Virus record (IMG/VR): IMGVR_UViG_3300042731_005223
Location: 1-21,829 of that record
Length of the DNA: 21,829 nucleotides
Direction: 5' to 3' (one strand)
Origin: a virus
Below, piece after piece: positions 1 to 21,306 of the stretch (within the stretch, counting starts at the first letter, position 1; the number at the start of each line of letters is the position of its first letter). The notes beneath the pieces were generated by a model. It saw only the letters and a list, made by a program, of their open reading frames with translations. It did no database searches and was not told the DNA's origin. The translations under genes were made by a program, and so were the position numbers.

Positions 1-74
1 AAAAAAAAGCTAAAGTTTTATTTCCAAATGCCGATAATAATATTAAAGGGAACAAATACCTAAAAGGGAGATAA
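1..74 (+). CDS. C-terminal end of an upstream gene (partial)
   Basis: Two frames are open from the window edge. The frame starting at base 3 runs about 23 codons to a TAA at 72-74 and ends in KGNKYLKGR. Its composition looks like real protein (mixed Asn, Asp, Ala, Lys). The frame starting at base 1 stops at 61-63. The base-3 frame is preferred because its end overlaps the ribosome binding site (AAAGGGAG) of the next gene, as is common in phage operons. Nothing can be said of function from this fragment. Confidence 0.4.
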   Translation, partial: KKAKVLFPNADNNIKGNKYLKGR

Positions 75-801: not shown

Positions 802-830
802 TTTACAACTGGTAAAAAGTGTTATATAAT
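802..830 (+). promoter_or_regulatory. Sigma70-type promoter upstream of the 88-residue gene
   Basis: TTTACA at 802-807 and a perfect TATAAT at 825-830 are separated by 17 bases, the ideal spacing. Transcription should start near 837, just before the ribosome binding site AGGAG of the gene at 854. The block TTTGTTTACAnnTG (798-811) is shared with the promoter at 19981, which supports both being real. Confidence 0.75.
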
Positions 831-853: not shown

Positions 854-1120
854 ATGGGAAACCCTTATTACGAAGAATTAGACCTATACCAAGACGAGAT
901 TGATGACTGCTTAGATTGCGCCATAGAAAAAATGCACGAAATGGCCAAAAGGAGCAGAGGGCAAATATCGATGGTAGGTGTTAGGAAAGCACTTGTATTT
1001 TACGGAATTGAAAAGGTTCCCAACATCGTATCCATCGCAGTCGAAAAAATTAAAAGCAAAGGCGTTAGCATAGGAGACGCCATGAACTCCGGTACTCAGC
1101 GAGAGGCCGGAACCCGATAA
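854..1120 (+). CDS. Hypothetical 88-residue protein
   Basis: No family is recognised. The protein is mixed-charge and probably all helical: an acidic N-terminus rich in Tyr and Asp (NPYYEELDLYQDEIDDC), then a Lys/Arg-rich middle (KMHEMAKRSRGQ), then a segment ending in KIKSKGVSIGDAM that could fold as a small helical bundle. The ribosome binding site AGGAG sits 7 bases upstream of ATG 854, and the gene has its own sigma70-like promoter. The last 12 codons or so run into the GC-rich hairpin region that follows, so the 3' end of this gene and the start of the structured RNA overlap. It may be an early gene, judging by the promoter. Confidence 0.65.
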   Translation: MGNPYYEELDLYQDEIDDCLDCAIEKMHEMAKRSRGQISMVGVRKALVFYGIEKVPNIVSIAVEKIKSKGVSIGDAMNSGTQREAGTR

Positions 1121-1128
1121 CTCCCTGA
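1118..1128 (+). repeat. Left copy of 11-bp direct repeat TAACTCCCTGA
   Basis: The 11 bases TAACTCCCTGA occur here and again at 1241-1251, a 123-base offset. The copies bracket most of the GC-rich hairpin segment. The left copy overlaps the stop codon of the preceding gene. Confidence 0.8.
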
Positions 1129-1240
1129 CTGTTGGGCAAGCCGACAGTATAAATAACGGCTTGCATTGCGGCCTAACCGCACGGGCCAGCCTGAAGTGCG
1201 GACGGTATTCTCACTCACCGAGAAAGTAGTGAGACCTCCC

Positions 1241-1251
1241 TAACTCCCTGA
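1241..1251 (+). repeat. Right copy of 11-bp direct repeat TAACTCCCTGA
   Basis: Exact copy of 1118-1128, lying immediately before the terminator hairpin at 1255. It could be a target-site-like duplication around an inserted element, or two equivalent single-stranded motifs of the same RNA. Confidence 0.8.
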
Positions 1252-1254
1252 ATG

Positions 1255-1288
1255 AAGGTGGGCCGGTTTTTGCCCACCTTTATTTTTT
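1255..1288 (+). terminator. Rho-independent terminator
   Basis: A perfect 9-bp stem AAGGTGGGC (1255-1263) / GCCCACCTT (1272-1280) with an 8-base loop, followed by TATTTTTT (1281-1288). It ends the transcript that starts from the promoter at 802-830 and so also the structured RNA segment. Confidence 0.9.
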
Positions 1289-1334
1289 GGTAAATCCTGT
1301 AAAGAAAAAATAAATAACTTAATGAAGGTCTCGC

Positions 1335-1822: not shown

Positions 1823-3132
1823 TGGGAACAAGAGTTGACGGCACAAGGCAGTCGCCACAGACTGGTAATTTAAGCGTAAAAATAGCCATAGATGAGACTC
1901 ATACTGGAATCTTAGATAGTGCAGATTTGGTTAGGTGTTATTTTATTGAGGATATTTTCGGCTTTTGTATGATGGGTAAACTCATTTTTTATGATAGGTC
2001 GGGTTTAATGGAATATGGCCCTTTTACGGGTAATGAAACTATATCGTTGGTTTATGGAACGGAAGAAGAACGAGAAATTGTATTCCACATATGGCGTGTT
2101 AAACGAATTGTACAGGTTAAACAGGGCGGAGTACAATCATCGGATGAAAATTTAATTGAGGTTGTTTTTGTGGATAATTCATATGGTGCAACTTTTGAAC
2201 CTAAATATAGCAGGTCTTTTGGTACGGATAAAACCTATATGGATATAGTAAATCATATCCTTAAAAACATGATAGGATGGCCGACCAATCGTATAAATTT
2301 AGAGCAATCCAATTCTAAACCGATAGAAGGTTTTGTTATTCCATATTGGTCTCCTGCGAAAACTATAAACTGGATATTAAAGCGTTGTATTAGTACGGAA
2401 ACTGCGTCAAGCGGTTATTTATGTTATGGCAATACTTATAATGAGCGGACGATAAATATTCGCACGTTAAATTATCTTTTCGGGGAAAATAATGTTTTAG
2501 ATGATGTTGATTATGTGTTTGGCTCAAGTGATGATAGTTTGAAGAATAAAGTTTTAGAATGGCACGTGGAAGGCGCAAACCGAAATGCGATGGGTAAGGT
2601 TTTAGGTGGAACGTGGAAGGGTTTTAATCCGGCTACCAAAAAATTAATATCAACGAATTATAATTTTACAGAGGGTATAAAAGATACCGTTTTATTAGGC
2701 CGACAAGCCGTTTTGCCTAATATAACCGATGCGACCCTCGGGTCATCGGTTGAAAAGGTAACAGGAGAGGCTTCAGAGGCCGAATTAAAGGCTTTTCTTT
2801 ATGATGAGTGGGCAAGGCAGTATAATCGTCAGAACGCCATTATAATAACCGTTGAGGGTAATGAAAAACGATATGCCGGTCATCAAATTCAAATAAGATG
2901 GCCGAGTGCGGATAAAGTATCACAAATTTACCATAAACAATATCAAGGCAAATATCTTGTTAAAAGTATAACGCATCATTTTACGGCACGAACAAGTGGG
3001 TCATCTTTTAATTATACCCAAAAAATGGTGTTATTAAAGAACGGATTTCAAGATGGGGATGCAATCTCTCTTGTTAATGCGTCTAAACAAAATACTCAAA
3101 CCAGAAATAAGTATACTTTTGTGAGGGCATAA
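1822..3132 (+). CDS. Baseplate central hub protein, gp27/gpD-like
   Basis: A 436-residue protein directly upstream of the OB-fold spike gene, the usual place for the hub that grips the spike and caps the tail tube. The N-terminal ~120 residues are beta-rich (VRCYFIEDIFGFCMMGKLIF, later ISLVYG) and resemble the tube-like barrels of gp27 and P2 gpD hubs. Residues about 145-200 have a helical segment with WSPAKTINWILKRC, typical of the region that follows the first barrel. The C-terminal third has HQIQIRWPSADK and the strand KYLVKSITHHF, which fits the second barrel. The assignment rests on position, length and general pattern, because hub proteins are highly divergent. Both ends overlap neighbours by one base (TAATG). 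Confidence 0.65.
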   Translation: MGTRVDGTRQSPQTGNLSVKIAIDETHTGILDSADLVRCYFIEDIFGFCMMGKLIFYDRSGLMEYGPFTGNETISLVYGTEEEREIVFHIWRVKRIVQVKQGGVQSSDENLIEVVFVDNSYGATFEPKYSRSFGTDKTYMDIVNHILKNMIGWPTNRINLEQSNSKPIEGFVIPYWSPAKTINWILKRCISTETASSGYLCYGNTYNERTINIRTLNYLFGENNVLDDVDYVFGSSDDSLKNKVLEWHVEGANRNAMGKVLGGTWKGFNPATKKLISTNYNFTEGIKDTVLLGRQAVLPNITDATLGSSVEKVTGEASEAELKAFLYDEWARQYNRQNAIIITVEGNEKRYAGHQIQIRWPSADKVSQIYHKQYQGKYLVKSITHHFTARTSGSSFNYTQKMVLLKNGFQDGDAISLVNASKQNTQTRNKYTFVRA

Positions 3133-20398: not shown

Positions 20399-20875
20399 AT
20401 GGACCCGAAAGTAAAAGAAGCAAAAATGATGAAGGTAACTATTGGGAAGAAGTGCCAATTAAACGGCACTCTCGACCTTAATAGACCGCATACTATTATT
20501 ATAAGGGATAAGGTTGTATTGGGAGGTGGAAGTAGGGTTATTACCCATTGCCCTATCCGTTCATTTTTGCCTGATGATAGAATTATTATAGGCGATTGTG
20601 CGTGGATAGGTTATAGGTCAGTTATTCTGCCCGGAGTACGCATAGGCCGATTTGCTATTATAGGCACTCAATCGGTTGTATCTAAAGACATCCCTCCCTA
20701 TCATATTGCCGCCGGAAATCCTATACGCATTTTGCGTAAACGAGATAAAGATGAGATACGCCGGTGGTACATCCAAAAATGGAAATTAGGTAAGGAACCC
20801 AATAAGGACGTTAAATATGACCCTAATATGTTAACAGAAGAAGAGGAGAAATGGATATTTAAGGACTACGATTAA
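20399..20875 (+). CDS. Hexapeptide-repeat acyltransferase
   Basis: A left-handed beta-helix acyltransferase of the NodL/LacA/CysE type, which moves acetyl or similar groups from CoA to sugars or amino groups. The core (residues about 32-97) shows hexapeptide repeats, and residues 63-114 read IIGDCAWIGYRSVILPGVRI, then FAIIGTQSVVSKDIPPYHIA and AGNPIRILRKR, the family's standard end. H50 (in ITHCP) is the likely catalytic His. Length is 158 residues with a charged C-terminal tail. The ATG at 20399 lacks a clear ribosome binding site; ATG 20426, after AAAGAAG, is an alternative start that removes nine residues. The acceptor is unknown: a cell-surface glycan or phage structure are possible. It overlaps the sigma gene by one base. 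Confidence 0.8.
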   Translation: MDPKVKEAKMMKVTIGKKCQLNGTLDLNRPHTIIIRDKVVLGGGSRVITHCPIRSFLPDDRIIIGDCAWIGYRSVILPGVRIGRFAIIGTQSVVSKDIPPYHIAAGNPIRILRKRDKDEIRRWYIQKWKLGKEPNKDVKYDPNMLTEEEEKWIFKDYD

Positions 20876-21306
20876 TGGGAGTTAAAGAAAGTAAGAATTA
20901 TGTAAAAAACGAAGACCTAATGCCCCATATATTTTATTACAGGGAGACGGGCAAGGTCACTGAAGAATTCGGGGAGATGCTATTAAAAATAGCCACAAAT
21001 TACGCCAATAAGGGTAATTTTCACGGCTATACATGGAAACAGGATATGGTAATGGAAGCCGTTTATACCTGTATCCGTTATATGCACAATTTTGACCCTA
21101 TCAAAAGAGCTAAACCAAATCCATTCGCATATTTCACATCTATAATCAGGAATGCATTTCTAAATTATATCGCAAAACAAAAAAAGCATAGCAAAATTAA
21201 AGACCATTGTTATAATTACCATCACTTAATGAACGATGAGGAGTGCGATGAGGATTTCTTTAAGACAAAGGGGTTAGATTATACGAAGTTAAAAGAGGAG
21301 AAGTAA
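20875..21306 (+). CDS. RNA polymerase sigma factor for late transcription, gp55-like
   Basis: A 143-residue protein that matches T4 gp55, the late sigma factor that directs host RNA polymerase to TATAAATA promoters. Shared pattern: HGYTWKQDMVMEAVYTCIRY followed by MHNFDP and K-x-NPFAYFTSIIRNAF, then LNYIAKQKKH; T4 gp55 has SWKQEMI, LHNFDETK and NPHAYIT in the same order. T4 gp55 is 185 residues. This protein is shorter at the C-terminus, and the hydrophobic clamp-binding end (LDFLYEA in T4) is not clear; LDYTKLKEEK is the nearest thing. A TATAAATA promoter stands before the baseplate operon. TAATG coupling links it to the acyltransferase, and the next ATG follows its stop directly. Confidence 0.85.
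   Translation: MGVKESKNYVKNEDLMPHIFYYRETGKVTEEFGEMLLKIATNYANKGNFHGYTWKQDMVMEAVYTCIRYMHNFDPIKRAKPNPFAYFTSIIRNAFLNYIAKQKKHSKIKDHCYNYHHLMNDEECDEDFFKTKGLDYTKLKEEK

Follow-up and report, generated by a model that had tools for sequence, protein, structure and literature searches.

We analysed a 21.8-kb stretch of DNA from a T4-like phage with a contractile tail (virus record IMGVR_UViG_3300042731_005223, which ends after 21.8 kb; hereafter the window). A first-pass annotation had described positions 1085-1288 as a GC-rich structured RNA candidate with alternative folds ahead of a terminator, possibly a switch or a regulatory RNA. Our analysis indicates that the best explanation of this stretch, judged from its sequence and assigned a probability of about 0.5, is a late small-RNA gene, in which a non-coding RNA of ~128 nucleotides (nt; positions 1161 to 1288, + strand) would be transcribed from a T4-type late promoter. 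This promoter lies inside the element, was overlooked by the first-pass annotation, and redefines the element's 5' end. The locus reads as a separate non-coding unit equipped with a promoter and a terminator of its own; its conservation, its non-coding nature, the promoter motif with a matching sigma factor and the terminator are established by the sequence. That a discrete late RNA is made from it appears probable on these grounds.

Conservation was assessed against a close relative, contig IMGVR_UViG_3300027917_000020 (161,607 bases, possibly incomplete; named G001), whose gp5 is 86% identical to that of the window. The comparison covered these two phages, target sites were examined in G001, and G001 gene starts were our own uncurated open reading frame (ORF) calls. 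Positions 1148-1262 showed no substitutions and one 5-nt indel, whereas differing sites amounted to 16% in the upstream gene (854-1084) and 13.7% in gp53; with an expected rate of 15%, the probability of 98 unchanged sites is ~1e-7. Positions 1270-1352 and 1392-1430 were likewise free of substitutions. Nearby changes fell mostly in loops (those of the hairpin at 1128-1148, the CCGCAC/GTGCGG stem and the terminator), with further changes within and just 5' of a second terminator hairpin. A coding sequence across the RNA stretch was ruled out by indels of 4, 5, 1, 3 and 6 nt, which break every frame, so the stretch is non-coding. No carriers of the element beyond G001 were found via gp5 (61 loci), the small upstream gene or exact patterns taken from five segments of it, and other matches of the core patterns were unrelated DNA. 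Similarly, a covariance model built from the two sequences had no match in 30 loci from relatives further removed, the stretch itself had none in annotated phages, and its 19-nt core had none in bacterial genomes.

The octamer TATAAATA at 1148-1155 (+ strand) is an exact match to the T4-type late promoter and is kept in G001. The T4 late promoter octamer covers -13 to -6 (PMC1524935), so that the RNA start is predicted at 1161. The other + strand copy in the window, at 1406-1413, serves gp53, and with it the baseplate operon, as late promoter; it lies 16 nt before the gp53 ATG and is the same in G001. In G001, 17 of 42 octamer sites were followed by a gene start at a distance of 15-90 nt, compared with a pooled rate of 9% for the control set of all 56 octamers composed of five A and three T, among which TATAAATA ranked first; 20 of the 42 sites fell within the 25% of the genome left non-coding by the ORF calls. 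The window also encodes a gp55-like late sigma factor of 143 amino acids (20875-21306, + strand; PHROG 234 late sigma factor, E 1.6e-32), which shares 32% identity with T4 gp55 (130 aligned positions) and matches gp55 of PDB 7d7c (E 1.4e-12). G001 encodes gp55 as well. Sequence features expected of a gp55-dependent late unit, namely an octamer on the sense strand, a phage-encoded gp55 and octamers placed before genes, were found.

The predicted fold of 1161-1288 was similar in both phages. It comprised a 5' hairpin region (1163-1199), in which alternative pairings GCGG/CCGC (1168-1180) and CCGCAC/GTGCGG (1177-1201) are possible, a second stem-loop with a CTCACT/AGTGAG core (1200-1239), a linker CUAACUCCCU (1240-1249), and an intrinsic terminator (1250-1288) consisting of a hairpin at about 1250-1285 and a U tract, with the stem kept and the loop changed in G001. 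The linker had an unpaired probability of 0.81-1.0 in the predicted folds of both phages, and we propose it as an anti-Shine-Dalgarno seed for AGGGAG ribosome-binding sites. Production of the RNA, its ends, its fold and its targets are what we infer from these features.

The stems named in the first-pass annotation were borne out by reading the sequence: ACTGTTGG/CCGACAGT (1128-1135/1141-1148), GCAAGCCG/CGGCTTGC (1136-1143/1157-1164), GCGG/CCGC (1168-1171/1177-1180) and CCGCAC/GTGCGG (1177-1182/1196-1201). GC enrichment was also evident (peak 0.59 vs 0.24-0.45 in the surroundings). The description of the stretch as exceptionally stem-rich held in part: the stems are real and the terminator beats chance, but the remainder is roughly expected at 55-60% GC. 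Against dinucleotide shuffles, the fold of 1085-1288 scored z -4.1, owed largely to the terminator, and that of 1120-1250 scored z -2.0. The fold of 1161-1250, which excludes the terminator, was only 1.35 standard deviations better than shuffles (20 of 200 shuffles equally good). The abundance of stems thus reflects mainly high GC, together with a genuine terminator. The alternative stem 1136-1143/1157-1164 is present in the window; G001 lacks the GCAAGC segment, so neither this stem nor the suggested GCAAG:CTTGC pseudoknot can form there, and the pseudoknot is not conserved. Competition between GCGG/CCGC and CCGCAC/GTGCGG is possible in both phages, with invariant pairing bases. The idea of a switch is thus unsupported, since one alternative pairing and the pseudoknot are missing in G001 and the other shows no covariation. 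In contrast, the idea of a regulatory RNA gained weight from the extreme conservation with frame-breaking indels, the late promoter and the terminator. As the annotation had said, no known RNA class is recognisable: Rfam 15 gave no matches at the gathering cut-off, and permissive thresholds up to E 10 gave only chance-level matches. As to the proposed boundaries, 1085-1120 is the end of a coding gene and the RNA unit most likely begins at 1161.

Candidate targets of the linker were found in G001. Its reverse complement, AGGGAGUUAG, lies whole in the start region of gene 72564-73454 (GAAGGGAGUUAGUAUG; 10/10 pairing), which encodes an ArdC-type anti-restriction protein (ArdcN, E 2.8e-34). The frame two bases upstream of the linker (CCCUAACUCC) has a 10/10 match in gene 2654-3004 (116 amino acids). 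None of 500 freely shuffled linkers paired over 10 contiguous bases with two start regions; of 1000 shuffles retaining CTCCCT, 7 did. Both genes are among six G001 genes sharing one strong promoter type (AAGTTT..TTGAC...TAAGAT), presumably early, judged by its sigma70 form. AGGGAG was present in 4 of the 6 early-type start regions; among the remaining 210 the count was 12 (Fisher 3e-4). The six genes also had better pairing energies than all remaining genes (p 0.006). Six near-identical strong promoters (AAGTTTTCCCTTGAC...GATATT...TAAGATAAAG) are placed about 55-75 nt before G001 genes, at L084:1287, L084:2587, L085:19499, L087:12490, L087:16280 and L087:18341 (loci of G001), with a degenerate version of the motif at window positions 13-60. 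This set is probably the phage's early promoter family.

These features suggest the following model. Early in infection, the gene at 854 would be transcribed from the promoter at 802-830 to the terminator. Late in infection, RNA polymerase bearing gp55 would initiate at ~1161 from TATAAATA (1148-1155) and stop at the terminator near 1288. The product would be a non-coding RNA of ~128 nt carrying two 5' stem-loops, the exposed 10-nt linker and the terminator hairpin. The linker would cover AGGGAG-type ribosome-binding sites, chiefly those of early genes such as the ardC-like gene and the 116-amino-acid gene in G001, and this pairing would block their translation after onset of the late programme, helping to end early protein synthesis. 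The terminator would additionally insulate the baseplate operon, itself served by the late promoter at 1406. Repression of early genes is a tentative assignment of the RNA's role, proposed from the pairing patterns and less likely than not to be right.

Several results weigh against a late small RNA with this action. The conserved block runs past the terminator to 1352, which a small RNA alone would not explain. The fold of 1161-1250 was close to that of shuffles, as given above (z -1.35), and a compensatory change was seen in none of 39 pairs, the two sequences being near-identical. The octamer is not over-represented across the whole window, so the case for the promoter rests on position, strand, GC-rich setting, terminator and the G001 statistics. 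As for the targets, the comparison of early-type genes with late genes alone gave p 0.056, AGGGAG is also carried by two late-promoter genes, and the target statistics were sought post hoc in G001 only, so that their p values are optimistic.

The foremost alternative is that the stretch is a structured 3' untranslated region of the upstream gene, which protects and ends the mRNA started at 802-830, with no separate late RNA and with TATAAATA being incidental. The upstream gene (854-1120, + strand) encodes a protein of 88 amino acids, which is 86% identical to its G001 counterpart and had no match among Pfam and PHROG families. Substitutions between the phages by codon position numbered 5/6/28, so 1085-1120 belongs to a real protein gene. 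A sigma70-type promoter, TTTACA-17-TATAAT, precedes it at 802-830 (+ strand; 11/12 consensus positions) and is kept in G001, where a similar element precedes another gene. The mRNA from this good promoter is predicted to run into the RNA stretch; the sequence from the gene's end to 1250 contains no terminator. A hairpin at 1128-1148 (+ strand), directly 5' of the late promoter, has its stem kept in G001, while its loop differs (GCAAG in the window, ~3 nt in G001), and conservation rises already over the 3'-terminal 36 bases of that gene. However, this explanation leaves to chance an exact, conserved late octamer on the right strand, in DNA of nearly 60% GC, in a phage that encodes gp55, and the downstream loops and single-stranded parts are conserved like the stems, which a mere stabiliser would not need. 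We regard it as unlikely, though the strongest competitor of a late small-RNA gene. A further observation in this region is that TAACTCCCTGA is present twice, at 1118-1128 (the stop codon of the 88-amino-acid gene) and at 1241-1251 (the RNA linker); TAACTCCCT is kept in G001 at both sites.

Somewhat less plausible is a leader or attenuator of the baseplate operon, in which transcripts from 1148 or from further upstream would partly pass two terminators into gp53, the RNA setting the amount. In its favour, transcripts from the promoter would meet two hairpins resembling terminators (about 1250-1288 and 1356-1398) before reaching gp53, and the stretches 1289-1352 and 1392-1430 also lack changes. 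Nevertheless, gp53 has its own octamer at 1406, the predicted folds contained no antiterminator pairing to the terminator stem, and in more distant relatives gp53 directly follows another tail gene, without the RNA stretch. The interval between the hairpins may itself hold a transcription unit. AATAAATA at 1309-1316 (+ strand), a late-promoter variant, is a possible second late promoter with a predicted start at 1322; positions 1289-1350 are identical in G001, where this variant stands before gene starts at 10 of 51 sites. The fold of 1322-1400 scored z -3.9 against shuffles. Together with the second terminator-like hairpin (about 1356-1398), this possibly marks a second small RNA of ~77 nt ending near 1398, read from sequence features as was the first. 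AGGTCTC of the putative second RNA could pair with GAGACCT of the first.

The least probable alternative is a DNA element, such as a replication origin or a recombination or packaging site, that is GC-rich and palindromic by chance: paired and unpaired bases are conserved alike and G001 has an exact second copy of a 31-nt piece within coding DNA, but nearby changes fall mainly in hairpin loops with stems retained, and promoter, stretch and terminator are ordered and oriented as a transcription unit. The recurring piece is an exact copy of the 5' end of the predicted RNA (TGCATTGCGGCCTAACCGCACGGCCTGAAGT) at G001:82017-82047 (L088:2017-2047), where it provides the final codons of a small, unrelated gene (81793-82044) and has GAAGTA on either side. 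It lies in the same sense and so is not an antisense target. A mobile or translational-bypass element was considered for this piece but not adopted, there being one copy and no relative of the gene to show an empty site.

Downstream of the candidate small-RNA gene, family searches assigned a gp53-like baseplate wedge (1430), a tail protein (1822), a gp5-like hub (3132), a PAAR tip (4674), a baseplate wedge (5929) and a tail-fibre domain (20040). In the more distant relatives, tail genes (L003:1521-2420 and L004:1-760) contain in-frame TGA where tryptophan would fit, which, judged by eye, is seemingly read as an amino acid. In G001, positions 48113-48312 (L086:8113-8312) hold the most GC-rich 120 bases of the contig (68% GC) with a strong fold, only short overlapping ORFs and no Rfam match, making this another candidate structured RNA; the remaining GC-rich stretches of G001 were mostly coding or tRNA.

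Small phage RNAs that block start regions are already known, and a gp55 late promoter is the unusual setting here. P22 sar and P1/P7 c4 are small RNAs of temperate phages that block start regions, and lambda OOP is an antisense RNA (PMC12197685). The candidate resembles them as a small phage RNA predicted to pair with phage mRNA near the translation start. Those RNAs, however, belong to temperate phages and target antirepressor or cII messages, whereas the candidate, from a T4-like phage, would be transcribed from a gp55 late promoter and would act on several unlinked early genes. T4 shuts off early messages with proteins: their start regions are cleaved at GGAG by RegB, and RegA is a translational repressor (PMC3014915). 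The candidate would likewise end early-gene translation and, like RegB, would act at a Shine-Dalgarno motif (GGAG in the case of RegB), but it is an RNA. No RegA or RegB relatives were found in G001 with single T4 queries, a weak negative since gp45 and rpbA were likewise missed. A gp55-driven late RNA that shuts down early translation through AGGGAG sites, as an RNA counterpart of RegB/RegA, is a speculative proposal to which we give about one chance in four. T4 also makes RNAC and RNAD, small RNAs without a known role (PMC3014915), for which that source describes no late promoter or anti-Shine-Dalgarno linker, unlike the candidate. At T4 gene e, a TATAAATA late promoter lies within an RNA structure, and late transcripts lack the upstream part of that structure (PMC3014915). 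The octamer is embedded in a structured stretch in both cases; at gene e, folding conceals the ribosome-binding site of a protein-coding gene, whereas the candidate is non-coding and is followed by a terminator.

According to a 2010 review of post-transcriptional control in T4, no trans-acting small RNA had been functionally characterised from this phage, and genomes of related phages were hoped to yield small-RNA candidates (PMC3014915). The locus described here is such a candidate from the T4 group, and its proposed promoter, ends, seed and targets are specified closely enough to be tested. If true, the switch from early to late expression in T4-like phages would gain a level of control by RNA.
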